A DNA stretch of 34,858 nucleotides from a virus, in the IMG/VR virus record IMGVR_UViG_3300010150_000068, positions 1 to 34,858 of that record; one strand, 5' to 3'. Shown piece after piece: positions 1,369-34,134 of this stretch (positions within the stretch are counted from its first letter, which is position 1; the number at the start of each line of letters is the position of its first letter). The notes under the pieces are model-generated. The model did not search any database. It saw nothing but the letters and a program-made list of their open reading frames with translations, and had not been told where the DNA came from. Position numbers and translations under genes: made by a program.

Positions 1369-1740
1369 TTAAAGTTTAATTTCTGTTAGACCATTTTCCC
1401 TATCAAGGTATTTAAAATCTATCTTAGTAGGGTTATATTTTTGTAACCAATCAAATACTACATTAGGATCAAACACTCCGCAAGTATACACATCAAGTTG
1501 TATCATAGCAGGATCTGTTTCGTCCCATGTGTGTATTATAACATGACTAGTTTCTATAATAGTAGCAACAGTCAACCCTCTATTACCTTTCATATTACAA
1601 TATTTGGCATATGGTCCCATTAGGATCTTCATACCTATTGCCTCTATCAAGGCTTTCACATCATTACTTGTAAGGGTTTCATCTGTTGGCGGATTAGTAA
1701 CTTCCGCTCGAATTATCACATGTTTGTGAACTAACTGCAT
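1369..1740 (-). CDS. speD: S-adenosylmethionine decarboxylase proenzyme
   Basis: A 123-residue protein, the usual size of bacterial/archaeal class 1B SpeD. The enzyme cuts itself at a serine to make a pyruvoyl cofactor, then decarboxylates S-adenosylmethionine to the aminopropyl donor for spermidine. The signature is present: ETSHVIIHTWDE, with predicted cleavage before Ser65 and His70 as the usual catalytic His, then QLDVYTCG with Cys87. These positions fit the Ser63/His68/Cys83 pattern of the Thermotoga enzyme. speD is a known auxiliary gene of marine phages; it could support polyamine packing of DNA or host metabolism. It lies convergent to the 1156 gene and divergent from the lipase. A perfect TATAAATA box is only seven bases from its presumed transcript start to ATG. 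Confidence 0.93.
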   Translation of the reverse strand: MQLVHKHVIIRAEVTNPPTDETLTSNDVKALIEAIGMKILMGPYAKYCNMKGNRGLTVATIIETSHVIIHTWDETDPAMIQLDVYTCGVFDPNVVFDWLQKYNPTKIDFKYLDRENGLTEIKL

Positions 1741-3163: not shown

Positions 3164-3994
3164 TTATACTTTGTTGATCTTTTCTAGTGCAGGAATCATA
3201 CGTGTTACACCTATGCCTCCGCCTACTCTTTGAAAGAAGTCAAACTCTAAAAACTTTTCTAGTTCTGCTTCTACTCTTTCCTTACCAAACAGTTTGAATA
3301 GTAACTCTGCATACTCTCCGTCTACAATACTGTGGAATGTATCACGCATCATATCAACATCACATGAACGTTCTGCTGATCCTATTGTTTCCATACCACC
3401 TAAGATAACGTCCATCTTCTTTGCAGTTTCGCCGTCATCGTTTCTAGCCATGTTCCAGAAAGGTGATGTTAGTTCAGGGAAGTTTGTAATAAGTGTTTGA
3501 CCAAACTCTTTTTCCATTGCAAGTTCGTGTTGTGCTTCCATCTCTGTATCAGCACTTAGTCCAAAGTGTTGTTGCCATTCAGCATAGGTCTTTTCTGTAA
3601 TGTTGCCAAAGCCTAAGTATTCACATAGTTCATACTCCATTGCTTTTAGATCATCTACATTGCCTGGCATCTCAAATTCAAACATTGGAAATATTATATC
3701 ATGTCTGCCTGGTATTGCATTAGGCTCTTGTCTATAGGAAGTGGAGACACAAAAAAACCCCTTACTATCGGGGCTACTTAATAATTCATGTTCTAACCAC
3801 ATCTGGCCTGTTTGCGGCAATGGCCAAGTGTTGCCTGCGTATTGGTATGTTGCTACATTGAATGGATCTTCACATGCGGCAAGTATGCTTAGTCTGTTTT
3901 GGGTATGGACTTCTAAGAATCCTTTGTCCAAAAAAAATGACCTTAAAAGGCCAATTGTGTTTGTAAATTTTTGTGGGGATATTAACTGCGTCAT
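3164..3994 (-). CDS. Class II aminoacyl-tRNA synthetase-like catalytic core (Asn/Asp type)
   Basis: 276 residues from the ATG at 3994 (GGAAAAAAAG upstream); an in-frame TTG at 4036 is less likely. Class II signatures are visible. Motif 1-like GFLEVHTQ (residues 25-32) has Gln where Pro is usual. Motif 2 is STSYRQEPN...RHDIIFP (85-103) with the FRxE-type Arg88/Glu90 and then FEFEM. GMETIGSAER (200-209) recalls AsnRS. Motif 3 is GGGIGVTRM (258-266). There is no N-terminal OB anticodon-binding domain, so this is only the catalytic fold, as in asparagine synthetase AsnA, the archaeal AsnRS paralogue, or EpmA. A tRNA gene follows six bases downstream, favouring a tRNA substrate. AsnA-type asparagine synthesis or protein modification remain alternatives. 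Genes upstream on the same strand (zinc ribbon, two membrane proteins) may share its transcript. Confidence 0.8.
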   Translation of the reverse strand: MTQLISPQKFTNTIGLLRSFFLDKGFLEVHTQNRLSILAACEDPFNVATYQYAGNTWPLPQTGQMWLEHELLSSPDSKGFFCVSTSYRQEPNAIPGRHDIIFPMFEFEMPGNVDDLKAMEYELCEYLGFGNITEKTYAEWQQHFGLSADTEMEAQHELAMEKEFGQTLITNFPELTSPFWNMARNDDGETAKKMDVILGGMETIGSAERSCDVDMMRDTFHSIVDGEYAELLFKLFGKERVEAELEKFLEFDFFQRVGGGIGVTRMIPALEKINKV

Positions 3995-4048
3995 TTTCTT
4001 TTTTTCCTTTTCATTAGTCAAAAAAAATTTGCTCAACTAGTGCCGAGC

Positions 4049-13146: not shown

Positions 13147-13740
13147 ATGAGTGAAGTATCTATTGTACCTAATTTAGTTTGGAAATATAATTATACCCCG
13201 GGCTTTGATGTACAAGCATTTAAAGACTACCAATCTACAGAAGCACAGCTAAACCCAACAGAAGCTGATGGTGGCCTGAGTACAGCAGGACATTTAAACC
13301 CTCCCCACGAATGGGAATGTAACAGAGATTTTATGATGTGGTTACGTCCAAAGATTGATATAGCACTAGCTGAATGGGACGTAGACTACACAGACGTTAT
13401 TGCTACAGGTAGTTGGACTAATCTACATCAAAAGAACGCACACACATTACCACATGATCATGGCAATGCAAATGTAGTAGTGTCTGCATATGTAAAAGTA
13501 CCACCTAAAAGTGGTAACATACAGTTTGAACAGTTACTAAGAACTAACTGGACAGCATATTCACGTAAGCCAACTAATACAATACACGATTATTGGAAAG
13601 AAGTAAGTGTACAAACTAATGACGTTGTAATATTTCCAGGTTGGCTAACACACAAAACACAAGCAAGTAACAGTGATGAAGATAGGATCACATTTACTAT
13701 TAATGTTAACGGCAGAGATAGGAGAAACATACAACTATGA
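13147..13740 (+). CDS. 2OG-Fe(II) oxygenase-like protein (1)
   Basis: 197 residues. The cupin-like core is visible: HTLPHDHGNANVVVSAYVKV places candidate iron ligands (PHDH) before the strand pair. FPGWLTHKTQ gives the distal His, and DEDRITFTINV the Arg that would bind the 2-oxoglutarate carboxylate. Spacing fits the phage 2OG-Fe(II) oxygenase family (TIGR02466-like), whose substrates are unknown; nucleic-acid or protein hydroxylation is possible. AGGAGG gives a strong start and the host-type promoter makes it the first gene of an operon. Overlaps the next gene by four bases (ATGA). Confidence 0.75.
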   Translation: MSEVSIVPNLVWKYNYTPGFDVQAFKDYQSTEAQLNPTEADGGLSTAGHLNPPHEWECNRDFMMWLRPKIDIALAEWDVDYTDVIATGSWTNLHQKNAHTLPHDHGNANVVVSAYVKVPPKSGNIQFEQLLRTNWTAYSRKPTNTIHDYWKEVSVQTNDVVIFPGWLTHKTQASNSDEDRITFTINVNGRDRRNIQL

Positions 13741-14498
13741 CCCAACGTATGGACTTAGGCACACTAATGAGTGCAAGTAATCAATGGATAATAGATATTA
13801 AATGTCCTTTCCACGAACAGTTTTTACAGCTATTTGAAAATAGCAAGTTTAGAGGTGAAGACCAAAGTAACGTTAAAACAACATTCAATGGTTACCAATA
13901 TGATATTACTCCTCCTAGCTTACCTGCATGGGGCGGCAAAGTTGTAAGGTCAGATAAGATGAATGCTGATACACCTGAACAACAAGGCTTTCCAAGTAGT
14001 AAACTTCTTAAAGAAACAAGATTCGAACCATCAGTACAATCAAACTTTCCACCTATAGACAAAGAAAAGTTTGATAACATTGATTGGAAACACCTAATGG
14101 AATGGGTAATGAAAGTTGTTAGACGCAACGGCGTTCCTGTTAAAACTATTAAAGTAAGTAAGACTTGGTGTGTTGATTACAATGATGGAGGCTACCAAGC
14201 AATACACAATCACGGAAGTGCATGTATTAGTATGGTAATGGCTATGGACGACACTCCTGTTAACGATAGTGACCATAAGACTATGTCACCTGACAACGGT
14301 ATGCTTTACACACTAATGCCTAATCCAGATGGCACACAAGAATACAATCAATTTGCACCTTACCCAGGCAGAACAATTCTTATGGACGGCAGAGTGTGGC
14401 ACGGAGTTTATCCTTGCAAAGCACCAAGACGCACTTGGGTAGTTGACTTTGACTTTGAATACTTTGCACCAGACGAGGAGTTTGATCCTAATGAGTGA
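13737..14498 (+). CDS. 2OG-Fe(II) oxygenase-like protein (2)
   Basis: 253 residues. The C-terminal half matches the third copy at 14658: YQAIHNHGSACISMVMAMDD, later GMLYTLMPN, then PYPGRTILMDGRVWHGVYPC and WVVDFDFEYF. HNH supplies candidate iron ligands, VWHGVYP the distal His and RRTWVVDF the Arg-bearing strand. The first ~120 residues are an extra segment with no recognised motif. Same transcript as the first oxygenase (ATGA overlap). Substrate unknown. Confidence 0.7.
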   Translation: MTQRMDLGTLMSASNQWIIDIKCPFHEQFLQLFENSKFRGEDQSNVKTTFNGYQYDITPPSLPAWGGKVVRSDKMNADTPEQQGFPSSKLLKETRFEPSVQSNFPPIDKEKFDNIDWKHLMEWVMKVVRRNGVPVKTIKVSKTWCVDYNDGGYQAIHNHGSACISMVMAMDDTPVNDSDHKTMSPDNGMLYTLMPNPDGTQEYNQFAPYPGRTILMDGRVWHGVYPCKAPRRTWVVDFDFEYFAPDEEFDPNE

Positions 14499-14658
14499 AA
14501 CATGTGAAACATGTCGTATTGCAGTAGGCAAGGACGGCATTGAAATAGATGCAAGCCAAGGTGACTTAGCCGTAGAAGCACTAGTACTAACTGTGATAGT
14601 GTTTGTGATAGCTATATTATATGTAGGCAAGAAAGCCGTAGATAAGAAATTTAAGTAA
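14491..14658 (+). CDS. Small Cys-containing membrane protein
   Basis: 55 residues from the ATG at 14491, which overlaps the previous stop as ATGAGTGA; an upstream in-frame ATG at 14443 is buried in that gene. Starts MSETCETC (CxxC), then a polar loop, one membrane span (ALVLTVIVFVIAILYVG) and a basic tail. Its start resembles the 4384 protein. Its stop shares a base with the next ATG (TAATG). Confidence 0.6.
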   Translation: MSETCETCRIAVGKDGIEIDASQGDLAVEALVLTVIVFVIAILYVGKKAVDKKFK

Positions 14659-15200
14659 TGGATACAGTATACACAGGATACAACCAAGCAATAATTGAAA
14701 CTCACTATGACGGATGGAAAGTTGTACACCAACAGGCAAATAAAAATGTTATAGAAGTTAAAGAATATCCTAGACGAATACAAAGCACGATTGACCCTAT
14801 GTGTTTTGTAGGTATGGAAAACTGGGTTAGAGACAAAATGAATGAACATGACATACCCGTAAAGAAAGTAACAGTAGACGAAAGCTGGTTGCACAATTAT
14901 AAACCATACGAGTATCAAAGTGTACACAATCATACAGGCAAACCTAATCTAGTTAGTTTAGTAATGTATGCACAAGATTTAGAATTAGATCTACCAAACG
15001 ATAATTCAGGTTCGTTATACACGATTATCGCAGAACGAGATCTTACCCTTAGTATTAATGAAATAGTACCTACACCAGGTAAGACAGTACTAATGACAGG
15101 CAACGTTAATCATGGAACATATCCTTATCACAACATAAGGAGTGCATTGGTTATCAATTTTGTAACAGAATGGCTAGAGCCAGAGGAAGAAACTAAATGA
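14658..15200 (+). CDS. 2OG-Fe(II) oxygenase-like protein (3)
   Basis: 180 residues, paralogous to the C-terminal half of the 13737 product: YQSVHNHTGKPNLVSLVMYA, then GSLYTII, PTPGKTVLMTGNVNHGTYPY and SALVINFVTEWLEP. The HxH-type ligands and distal His are kept, and the Arg lies in NIRSALVINF. It lacks the long N-terminal segment of copy 2, so the two probably arose by duplication and diverged. Coupled to genes on both sides by overlaps. Confidence 0.68.
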   Translation: MDTVYTGYNQAIIETHYDGWKVVHQQANKNVIEVKEYPRRIQSTIDPMCFVGMENWVRDKMNEHDIPVKKVTVDESWLHNYKPYEYQSVHNHTGKPNLVSLVMYAQDLELDLPNDNSGSLYTIIAERDLTLSINEIVPTPGKTVLMTGNVNHGTYPYHNIRSALVINFVTEWLEPEEETK

Positions 15201-26900: not shown

Positions 26901-27206
26901 ATGAAGTGTACTAAAGGCGACTTAGCCCAAATCATATATTCAGTACGTCCTGAGAATATTGGACGAATTGTCAAATGCGTAGAGTATATTGGTAAATTCA
27001 AACAAGGAGAACAGTTTGAGTTTAGAGGTATGCCTTGCCAATGTCCTGTTACAGACCACTATTGGTGGATTGAAGCAGAAGACCTATCAAGTTTATTTGG
27101 ACCTAGCCCAAGAGCATATATTGCCGACAGTTGGTTAGAACCTTTAAAGAATCCAAATCAAAAATCTAAAGAAAAAGAAAAAATACCGGTTGACATAGCC
27201 GCATAA
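26901..27206 (+). CDS. Protein of unknown function with paired Cys
   Basis: 101 residues from the ATG at 26901; earlier in-frame ATGs lie over the divergent gene's start and are rejected. MKCTKGDLAQIIYSVRPENIG starts a small barrel-like domain, followed by GMPCQCPVTDHYWWIEAEDL with a CxC pair. The end is Lys-rich. No family recognised. It lies just before the tmRNA gene; the tmRNA promoter's -35 is inside its last codons. Confidence 0.6.
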   Translation: MKCTKGDLAQIIYSVRPENIGRIVKCVEYIGKFKQGEQFEFRGMPCQCPVTDHYWWIEAEDLSSLFGPSPRAYIADSWLEPLKNPNQKSKEKEKIPVDIAA

Positions 27207-27220
27207 TGAGTGTATAAATA
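27190..27220 (+). promoter_or_regulatory. tmRNA promoter: TTGACA-N17-TATAAATA
   Basis: TTGACA at 27190-27195, 17-base spacer, TATAAA at 27213, which is also a perfect TATAAATA late box (27213-27220). Both early (host) and late (phage) polymerase should read it. Confidence 0.8.
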
Positions 27221-27287
27221 TAGCTGTAACGTTGAAGCAATTCAAACGCTATACAGGACTCGGGGGCAGTACCCGACGCCTCCACCA
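27221..27287 (+). ncRNA. ssrA: tmRNA acceptor piece (permuted, two-piece form)
   Basis: The 3' part of the tRNA-like domain comes first, as in alphaproteobacterial permuted ssrA. The T-arm is TCGGG-GGCAGTA-CCCGA, with the loop sequence of two-piece tmRNAs. The acceptor 3' strand CGCCTCC is followed by A and an encoded CCA ending at 27287. CGCCTCC pairs with GGGGGCG at 27368, with a G-U as third pair, the alanine identity element. The exact 5' end is set by processing or the promoter start; it is not sharply defined. Confidence 0.88.
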
Positions 27288-27367
27288 TAAACACATGAGA
27301 GTAGATACACCTGCTTTTCTGTGTATAGGACAAGACCTCGAAAGGGTGCAAGTCGTGTGTTTATGAT
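27288..27367 (+). ncRNA. ssrA: Intervening segment of pre-tmRNA
   Basis: 80 bases removed in permuted tmRNAs. Its ends extend the acceptor helix: TAAACACA (27288-27295) pairs with TGTGTTTA near its 3' end. This continuous helix is strong evidence that the two pieces come from one folded precursor. Confidence 0.78.
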
Positions 27368-27518
27368 GGGGGCGAACTAGGATCGACTGGTAGTTAATAG
27401 AGTTAGTGGAGTTTCCCGGATCTAAGCACGGTTATCGCGAAGAAAACTATAGACGCAAACGAAAACTTTGCTCTTGCGGCCTAGTAATTAACTAGGTTAC
27501 GGGGTTGGCAACTTACCT
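27368..27518 (+). ncRNA. ssrA: tmRNA coding piece, tag (A)ANENFALAA
   Basis: Starts GGGGGCGAACTAGGATCGAC, the standard 5' end of tmRNA (acceptor strand plus D-loop). The resume codon is GCA at 27455 (after AGAC), followed by AAC GAA AAC TTT GCT CTT GCG GCC and stop TAG (27482-27484). The tag would be AANENFALAA with the charged Ala, ending in ALAA as needed for ClpXP/ClpAP recognition. CCTAGT/ACTAGG forms the hairpin around the stop. CTG-G-TAG near the 5' end can pair with CTA-TA-CAG in the acceptor piece. End set by the terminator that follows; pseudoknots were not traced. Confidence 0.9.
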
Positions 27519-27542
27519 GGCAACAGAAAAGTTGCGTTTTTT
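27519..27542 (+). terminator. tmRNA terminator
   Basis: GCAAC-AGAAAA-GTTGC followed by GTTTTTT. Confidence 0.88.
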
Positions 27543-27746: not shown

Positions 27747-27780
27747 ACACAGCCTATTAGACTTTGTGTTTTTTCTGTGC

Positions 27781-27796
27781 TATAATAATTTAAATA
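27781..27796 (+). promoter_or_regulatory. TATAAT -10 plus TTTAAATA late-type box
   Basis: TATAAT at 27781-27786 (the -35 is weak) and TTTAAATA at 27789-27796. AAGGAGATATC leads into the ATG at 27814. Confidence 0.5.
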
Positions 27797-27813
27797 TAGC
27801 ATAAGGAGATATC

Positions 27814-28869
27814 ATGCCACCACGTAATCATAAGAGTTGGTTAGCACAACCAAACGTAGAATCAATTAGCAGTTCAGCATATAACGATCCAGAAGTATTT
27901 GCACAAGAGCAAGAACGTATCTTTTCAAAGGTATGGGTGCCAATGTGTCATATCTCAGAGATGTATAACAAACTAGACTACCGAACAACACAGATAGCAG
28001 GTGTTAATGTTATTGCATACAACACAGGCGATGGTGTTCGAGCATATCGTAACTATGGCAGTTGGGCACCTAGTGGTACGCTAGGAGCACCTATTGTAAC
28101 TGTTGAACCACAGTTGCATTGTGAAGTAAAGCACGGAGGTATGGTATGGGTAACACTAGATCCTAATCCAACGCAAAGTGTAGAACAATGGACAGCAGGT
28201 GCATTTGATTGTATCGCTGATGCTATTGACACAGAAGAAATGGAAGTGTTTCATTATCATAAGGCAGTAATAAATACCAACTACAAGTTATGGCATGATA
28301 CTAACAGTGAATTCTATCACGACTTCATGCACTACTTTAATAGAGTAAGTGGATTCAACGATGAGTACTTCGCACGTAAAAATTTACCTTTTGATAATGG
28401 GCATGTTAACGTGTCTAGTTTTACTGTCAACTATGAGGAGTACGAGGGCTTTGAAGATAGAGGAGAGTTATCATTTCCAAACTTGCCGCCCAATCAATGG
28501 TACATGGTCGATTTGTTCCCCGGCTTCAACTTTAACCTTCGAGGCTCCGCCTACCGTAGTGATTCAGTTACTCCCCTAAGTTGTAACAAAGTTCTTATTG
28601 AGTTTAGAGGTTACGGACTACGCAAAGATACACCCAAAGAAAGACTAACACGTATCAAACATCACAACAGTATATGGGGACCGTTCGGACGTAACCTACA
28701 CGAAGACCTAATTGGTGTAGCAGGACAAGGAACAACAATGCGTGAAGGCACAGAAGCACGTAACATACTTCATGGTAGACATGAAAATGGAACTATACAT
28801 GATGAAGTAGGTATGCGTCATTACTATTCAGAATGGGGCAAGTATTTGGATGTTGACCCGTATCAGTAA
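27814..28869 (+). CDS. Ring-hydroxylating-oxygenase-like protein lacking the Rieske centre
   Basis: 351 residues. Residues 15-50 (SAYNDPEVFAQEQERIFSKV) match the lead-in of Rieske non-haem iron oxygenase alpha subunits. The Rieske ligands CxH...CxxH are absent and that part seems shortened: RAYRNYGSWAPSG runs directly into PQLHCEVKHGGMVWVTLDP, which normally comes after the cluster. The mononuclear-iron site survives: SEFYHDFMHYFN (His169 and His173; the usual spacing is one longer) and LHEDLIGVAGQ (the Asp-bearing helix). It could use another electron source or be a non-redox relative. Stand-alone gene, not near a reductase or ferredoxin. The reading frame is intact. Confidence 0.75.
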   Translation: MPPRNHKSWLAQPNVESISSSAYNDPEVFAQEQERIFSKVWVPMCHISEMYNKLDYRTTQIAGVNVIAYNTGDGVRAYRNYGSWAPSGTLGAPIVTVEPQLHCEVKHGGMVWVTLDPNPTQSVEQWTAGAFDCIADAIDTEEMEVFHYHKAVINTNYKLWHDTNSEFYHDFMHYFNRVSGFNDEYFARKNLPFDNGHVNVSSFTVNYEEYEGFEDRGELSFPNLPPNQWYMVDLFPGFNFNLRGSAYRSDSVTPLSCNKVLIEFRGYGLRKDTPKERLTRIKHHNSIWGPFGRNLHEDLIGVAGQGTTMREGTEARNILHGRHENGTIHDEVGMRHYYSEWGKYLDVDPYQ

Positions 28870-28948: not shown

Positions 28949-29401
28949 ATGACTATGAGTTTGGTACGTGGAATGACTTCCCTTAATACTAAGAAACGTA
29001 AAGCTACCAAGATGACTAAAGGCAGGCTCGAACGTCTTGTCAAAGAGCATCGTGAACATAATAAGTCCATGAAACGTATTCATGCACACAGTAATATAAT
29101 GACATTTGATGAATATGTTGAATACGTAAGTGGTAACTTTAAACCCAAAACAAAAACATCTACTAAGGCATGGACTTGGGAAGGTCCAAAAGTACGTGAA
29201 ACAGAACACATTCCTAGTCGTGTTACTAAGGATAGTTTCGCTCCAGCAACCAAAAAAGAATCTATGCAATACACAGGTGAACGTAAACTTGTAGGTATTG
29301 CTATGATGCATAAAAGTAACTTGGTTCCTGTGTTTGCAGATGACGATGACAAAACAGGATCAAAACAAGCAACTGAAATCGCACAGATGAGGAGAAATTA
29401 A
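28949..29401 (+). CDS. Conserved-looking basic protein of unknown function
   Basis: 150 residues, starting MTMSLVRGMTSLNTKKRK, with AGAGGTAACATTATT upstream. Basic throughout, with TFDEYVEYVSG, then a stretch ending in the distinctive YTGERKLVGIAMMHKSNLVPVF and a final EIAQMRRN. I have an impression of the same end block in marine T4-like phages, but assign no function. Cotranscribed with the 28-residue peptide two bases later. Confidence 0.65.
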   Translation: MTMSLVRGMTSLNTKKRKATKMTKGRLERLVKEHREHNKSMKRIHAHSNIMTFDEYVEYVSGNFKPKTKTSTKAWTWEGPKVRETEHIPSRVTKDSFAPATKKESMQYTGERKLVGIAMMHKSNLVPVFADDDDKTGSKQATEIAQMRRN

Positions 29402-33531: not shown

Positions 33532-34134
33532 ATGAGTTTAAAAGCTGACCTTTGGTTTCCATCGATTGTATTTGCAGGTTATGTAGAATCAATTGATAGA
33601 CAATCACTAAAAAATATTGCCCTTGCATGGCAAACAAAAGAACCTAACCTTGGTGGCAATAGCAATATGAATGGTTGGCATAGTCGCAGTATTGAGAATG
33701 TAAACTTAGTTGACCCTAACTATGTGTTTGCTCTTAATACGTTTGTAAAAGAACTAGATGCACAAATAGATTACTGTCGCAAAACTATGGGACTACCTGA
33801 ATTAGAATTCCAAAACTTCTGGATTAACATTAATGGTCCAGGAGCATATCATACATTACACAATCACCAAGACGCTATGTTGAGTGGTGTATTTTATATA
33901 GACGTTCCTACAGAGAATATGGGCGACTTACAATTTTTTAGAGGCGATGATGCACAGTATTACATTCCAGATAACTTTGATGCATATAATACAATAACAA
34001 GTACAATGGCAACGTATCCTCCAAAAGACGGAATGATAGTAATCTTTCCTAGCTGGGTCAAACATCAAGTTAAATCAAACCAAAGTGACTTGCAACGGAT
34101 TGCAGTCTCTTTTAATTACGGAGTTAAGAAGTGA
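33532..34134 (+). CDS. 2OG-Fe(II) oxygenase-like protein (4)
   Basis: 200 residues. The N-terminal part WFPSIVFAGYVESIDRQSL and WHSRS, then AYHTLHNHQDAMLSGVFYI and a Pro-containing strand, FRGDDAQYY, IVIFPSWVKHQVKSNQSD and RIAVSFNYG follow the TIGR02466-type phage 2OG oxygenase. Iron ligands are HNH plus the distal VKHQV His, and the Arg before IAVSFN binds 2-oxoglutarate. It is the most canonical of four such genes. One base separates it from bS21; its stop overlaps guaC (GTGA). Confidence 0.82.
   Translation: MSLKADLWFPSIVFAGYVESIDRQSLKNIALAWQTKEPNLGGNSNMNGWHSRSIENVNLVDPNYVFALNTFVKELDAQIDYCRKTMGLPELEFQNFWININGPGAYHTLHNHQDAMLSGVFYIDVPTENMGDLQFFRGDDAQYYIPDNFDAYNTITSTMATYPPKDGMIVIFPSWVKHQVKSNQSDLQRIAVSFNYGVKK

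Follow-up and report, generated by a model that had tools for sequence, protein, structure and literature searches.

A phage gene for a methanesulfonate monooxygenase-type subunit without a Rieske cluster, and its putative partner in SAR116 bacteria

The alpha subunit of methanesulfonate monooxygenase, MsmA, is recognised by a Rieske motif with a long spacer, CxH-X26-CxxH (PMC4433239). In 2015, Henriques and De Marco reported that the motif is missing from the phage HMO-2011, from many marine virome and Global Ocean Sampling (GOS) sequences and from one of two proteins of the bacterium IMCC1322 (PMC4433239), and later papers have handled the SAR116 msmA as an ordinary gene. A catalytic subunit devoid of its own cluster has a precedent in the 7-methylxanthine N7-demethylase of Pseudomonas putida CBB5, where NdmC lacks the Rieske cluster and the reductase NdmD bears an extra one (PMC4408171), although splits of the NdmC type are not known in phages. 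Here, we analyse a gene of this kind in a marine virus contig, IMG/VR record IMGVR_UViG_3300010150_000068, whose whole length of 34,858 bases is called the window. Its product of 351 amino acids is a Rieske oxygenase alpha-type catalytic domain without the CxH-Xn-CxxH Rieske domain, and we consider it probable, from sequence comparisons, that it supplies the catalytic half of a methanesulfonate monooxygenase divided over two proteins, drawing electrons from the half kept by the host.

The closest described relative in a phage is gp61 of HMO-2011, annotated as a methanesulfonate monooxygenase alpha subunit, which is 71% identical to the window protein over 99% of its length and shows the same Rieske deletion and iron site. 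The surroundings of the two genes differ, since in HMO-2011 the gene lies among structural, lysozyme and terminase genes, whereas in the window cyanophage-like ribonucleotide reductase (RNR) genes and a transfer-messenger RNA (tmRNA) are found nearby. In the case of bacteria, the second 'MsmA' of IMCC1322 and other chromosomal Rieske-less copies of SAR116 are about 76-79% identical to the window protein and carry the same deletions, but their genes are accompanied by those of a transporter, a Rieske-reductase fusion, MsmB and a ferredoxin, none of which is present in the phage. Full MsmA proteins (Methylobacterium, Filomicrobium, Hyphomicrobium and others) are about 415 amino acids long and contain CxH-X26-CxxH; they show about 60-64% identity to the window protein (alignment A2) and share with it the iron-site motifs NSEFYHDFMH and HEDL. 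Judged by identity and motifs, the window protein is thus an MsmA-type catalytic domain.

Compared with full-length MsmA, about 7 residues are deleted at the first CxH and about 42 around CxxH, which removes the very columns of the cluster ligands and rules out a divergent yet complete Rieske site. A leftover pair, C45-H46, was rejected as well, since its counterpart in full MsmA is a CysHis that lies apart from the Rieske motif. In the open reading frame, Pfam recognised the catalytic domain PF00848, which scored above its gathering threshold (E 3.8e-6), but not the Rieske domain (PF00355). The lead-in of the protein (residues 11-86) has matches among Rieske oxygenases with solved structures. 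An AlphaFold2 monomer model built with 29 relatives reached a predicted local distance difference test score (pLDDT) of 79 and a predicted template modelling score (pTM) of 0.82, with residues 174-181, directly behind the second histidine, poorly modelled; Foldseek placed it nearest to the alpha subunits of Rieske oxygenases, namely terephthalate dioxygenase, salicylate 5-hydroxylase and CntA. The ligands were counted on one alignment comprising full MsmA, the fusion proteins of SAR116 and 178 Rieske-less proteins (159 viral, 17 bacterial and two from phage-like contigs in bacterial bins), all 178 sharing the same deletion. Rieske ligands occur in 0/178 Rieske-less, 40/40 full MsmA and 15/15 fusion proteins, while the iron triad (H169, H173 and D298 in the window protein) and the bridging glutamate are found in 178/178, 40/40 and 0/15, respectively. 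These results bear out a first-pass annotation of the window, which had described an oxygenase with its lead-in and iron site kept and its Rieske motif gone from a shortened region in an intact frame. The same annotation had pointed to the HxxxH spacing of the histidines as unusual. The spacing itself is correct (H169-DFM-H173), but it has no tie to the loss of the cluster: all 40 Rieske-bearing MsmA share it, so that it is a trait of the MsmA family and not the mark of an altered chemistry specific to that loss.

The SAR116 loci offer a reciprocal counterpart. Their msm region encodes a protein of 796-857 amino acids that combines an MsmA Rieske domain (PF00355, with CxH-X26-CxxH) with a region that aligns to the MsmA catalytic domain but is devoid of the NSEFYHDFMH and HEDL motifs, and with Pyr_redox_2 and Reductase_C domains. 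By its sequence, this paralogue is an MsmA with an intact Rieske domain and a lost iron site, fused to an NADH-dependent flavin reductase. One genome, G097, which we take to be probably that of IMCC1322, the host of HMO-2011, holds both the Rieske-less subunit and the fusion, and the latter retains a vestige, KLNHDRTIKFHQDFM, where MsmA has KLWHDTNSEFYHDFM, as would be expected from decay after duplication. The region also contains genes for a substrate-binding protein/ATP-binding cassette (SBP/ABC) transporter, an MsmB-like protein, a Rieske ferredoxin, a protein of 281 amino acids and the Rieske-less subunit, together with LysR, a TauE sulfite exporter and formate-tetrahydrofolate ligase. 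The 281-residue protein (positions 8953-9795 in L085) is present beside the split system in almost every SAR116 locus, and no Pfam or PDB relative of it was found. Three loci (L225-L227) have the Rieske-less gene several kb distant from the other msm genes, and in one of them, L227, the fusion is divided into two open reading frames. In G097, a dmsABC-like set (962, 249 and 312 amino acids; L223, 9412-14002) lies between the ferredoxin and the 281-residue protein genes, in agreement with PMC8547437.

The two halves also occur together. Among 136 genomes that belong to the same order as L085 (SAR116), and that are related and hence not independent, the Rieske-less subunit and the fusion occur in one and the same set of 12, one of them carrying two copies of each, and a thirteenth match is an ordinary full MsmA. 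Beyond this set, both halves were found in L091, L094 and L096, and the contig of L087 starts within MsmB, leaving its fusion status unreadable. Moreover, selection runs oppositely in the two proteins, each retained half being constrained. In the phage protein, the ratio of nonsynonymous to synonymous substitution rates (dN/dS) is 0.037 for the catalytic domain, which is nearly invariant across the viral relatives, versus 0.31 for the Rieske remnant, its fastest-evolving part. In the fusion, it is 0.012 for the Rieske domain versus 0.163 for the catalytic remnant, with small samples of 6 to 16 pairs both here and for the bacterial Rieske-less subunit, and in full MsmA it is about equal in both domains (0.080 and 0.073). 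Reciprocal loss, co-occurrence, a shared msm region and selection on each retained half can be read from the sequences themselves. The deletion could in principle come from a decaying gene or an assembly artefact, but the frame is intact and under purifying selection and the deletion is identical in all viral relatives examined and common to all relatives compared, which refutes this reading and leaves it a negligible probability.

A plausible mechanism is provided by ordinary Rieske oxygenases, in which the electron leaves the Rieske cluster of an alpha subunit for the mononuclear iron of the adjacent one in the ring, via a bridging carboxylate. In CntA, for which this has been shown, the cluster lies 44 Å from the iron within one subunit and 12 Å from it across neighbours, and Glu205 is the bridging residue (PMC7948474). 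This short distance across neighbours makes a ring or complex mixing Rieske-only and iron-only subunits plausible for a split enzyme. In SAR116, a marine alphaproteobacterial lineage, the two jobs of the alpha subunit would be placed on two paralogous alpha-like proteins, which would assemble so that electrons pass from the Rieske cluster of the fusion to the iron of its Rieske-less counterpart. The substrate would be methanesulfonate, and the products sulfite and formaldehyde. The phage protein, which brings no partner gene along, would join the Rieske-reductase, MsmB and ferredoxin of the host during infection, and the phage could benefit from sulfite and from one-carbon units or reducing power. 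The retention of the bridging glutamate in a viral protein without a cluster of its own speaks for this proposal, and so do searches of viral contigs for the fusion, MsmB, ferredoxin and the 281-residue protein, which reach close relatives only and gave none of them except for two weak reductase matches. The early suggestion that electrons must come from elsewhere thus finds a likely source in the Rieske-reductase paralogue of the msm region. The second option proposed at that stage, a non-redox role, is permitted by the absence of the cluster alone; the iron site would then serve ligand binding, sensing or structure. We regard it as very improbable, given the invariant triad, a dN/dS of about 0.04, an invariant bridging glutamate with no evident use without electron transfer, and chromosomal relatives that sit among methanesulfonate catabolism genes, beside the Rieske-reductase.

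On the other hand, the Rieske-less subunit could form its own ring and draw its electrons straight from a soluble ferredoxin of the host, for example MsmC, the fusion being only a reductase or having another role. A small Rieske ferredoxin (PF00355) is indeed encoded in the same region, but the Rieske domain of the fusion is more constrained than that of ordinary MsmA and the fusion strictly co-occurs with the Rieske-less subunit. Moreover, genomes with ordinary MsmA have the ferredoxin and no fusion, which indicates that there the ferredoxin alone is no substitute for the cluster; we see this route as unlikely. A further alternative is an interfering subunit that enters the MsmA rings of the host and halts or redirects methanesulfonate oxidation. 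It would fit a phage protein without cluster and phages without partner genes, and, as Rieske oxygenases act between neighbouring subunits, a mixed ring with full-length MsmA is conceivable. A blocker, however, need not preserve the iron triad, the bridging glutamate and the pocket, which are invariant in 159/159 viral sequences, and this makes interference rather improbable.

Several observations weigh against the split enzyme as the destination of the phage protein. Most of the SAR116-order genomes (123/136) carry neither half, so that some hosts may lack the partner, and the tmRNA of the window, used as a pointer to its host, matched over a short conserved stretch only and gave no lead. The Rieske-bearing reductase is present in 12/12 SAR116-order genomes with the subunit and absent from the phage. 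Phage and host Rieske-less copies differ most in the N-terminal part and the Rieske remnant, which is where a partner might dock. Finally, the structure model of the fusion (pLDDT 63.5, pTM 0.40) is too poor to judge its fold and was left unused.

Relatives of the window protein are widespread, with at least 597 confirmed in an IMG/VR scan. Bacterial and archaeal genomes yielded 60 loci, about 40 of them with ordinary MsmA containing CxH-X26-CxxH; the bacterial Rieske-less copies, of about 362 amino acids, come mostly from SAR116 genomes. Two loci, L098 and L099, are Rieske-less copies on contigs filed under Rickettsiales and Hellea metagenome-assembled genomes. The former carries the gene set of the window (RNR and homologues of the reading frames at 28949 and 30821) and neither has msm genes, so that both have the appearance of phage contigs binned with bacteria. 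Another copy (L078, 3773-4834) is identical to the window protein for roughly its first 45 residues and then diverges, a pattern suggestive of recombination inside the gene. Two Acinetobacter 'phage' matches (H3 and H4) were set aside as a distant AntA-type oxygenase with a Rieske motif and a bacterial-looking context. With full MsmA as the root of the tree, the Rieske-less proteins of bacteria form a clade lying within the viral sequences (enclosing branch with bootstrap 100 and a Shimodaira-Hasegawa-like approximate likelihood ratio, SH-aLRT, of 99), and a sister placement with all phages as one clade was not rejected by the approximately unbiased (AU) test (p 0.153). A tentative scenario, which we hold as possible rather than probable, is that duplication and reciprocal metal-site loss divided the oxygenase, that marine phages disseminated the catalytic half alone, and that the catalytic half of the hosts may itself derive from phages. 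As the close relatives found are MsmA, the split looks independent of that of NdmC; unlike NdmD, the SAR116 Rieske partner still contains a degenerate catalytic domain of the alpha type, and its reductase is of the Pyr_redox_2/Reductase_C type.

The features of the gene are collected in Table 1. A comparison with PHROGs gave no match for its product. Just upstream, a tmRNA at 27186-27538, overlooked by ARAGORN, is matched by both the alphaproteobacterial and the permuted tmRNA models of Rfam. The window also encodes five tRNAs, RNR genes whose nearest relatives are those of cyanophages and a pelagiphage, and PAAR/peptidase M15 genes. Genes for 2-oxoglutarate (2OG)-Fe(II) oxygenase-like proteins lie at 13147-13740 and 33532-34134, two matching phrog_81, and further ones were recognised by eye at 13737-14498 and 14658-15200. 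Also by eye, an S-adenosylmethionine decarboxylase-like protein (1369-1740, minus strand) and a class II aminoacyl-tRNA synthetase-like catalytic domain (3164-4036, minus strand), which adjoins the tRNA genes, were noted.

Table 1. Features of the Rieske-less gene and its upstream region in the window.
Feature	Position	Strand	Basis
Sigma-70-like promoter match, TAGACT-17-TATAAT, TG before second hexamer	27758..27786	+	Consensus match only
Shine-Dalgarno AAGGAG, 5 nt before ATG	27803..27808	+	Seen directly in sequence
Coding sequence of Rieske-less MsmA-like catalytic alpha subunit, uninterrupted from ATG	27814..28869	+	Open reading frame, PF00848, gp61 identity, AlphaFold2, Foldseek
Rieske domain remnant, about residues 80-101, both cluster-binding loops deleted	28051..28116	+	Alignment with full MsmA; dN/dS
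Glu166 codon, counterpart of bridging carboxylate Glu205 of CntA	28309..28311	+	Invariant; aligned with CntA EcYH
HxxxH, His169 and His173, presumed mononuclear iron ligands	28318..28332	+	178/178 Rieske-less, 40/40 full MsmA
Asp298 in NLHEDL, presumed third iron ligand	28705..28707	+	178/178, 40/40; lost in 15/15 fusion paralogues

The loss of the Rieske motif in HMO-2011 was known since 2015 and the NdmC/NdmD pair is a precedent for the split, so that the new element is the reciprocal paralogue of SAR116. No literature linking gp61 of HMO-2011 to a split system was found, and neither the fusion nor the split is described in the literature searched, whose scope did not extend to Kang et al. 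2013 and the IMCC1322 genome paper, so that priority is not certified. In any case, the proposed split offers an explanation for the puzzle of 2015, the absent Rieske motif in the 'MsmA' of an abundant marine phage of the HMO-2011 type. With its two metal sites on separate proteins that can be mutated one at a time, the system would also be a natural setting in which to test how electrons pass between the subunits of Rieske oxygenases. Finally, it suggests that viral metabolic genes include a type encoding only half of an enzyme, for which a particular host protein is needed as partner, a reading that bears on claims of viral methanesulfonate oxidation in the ocean.
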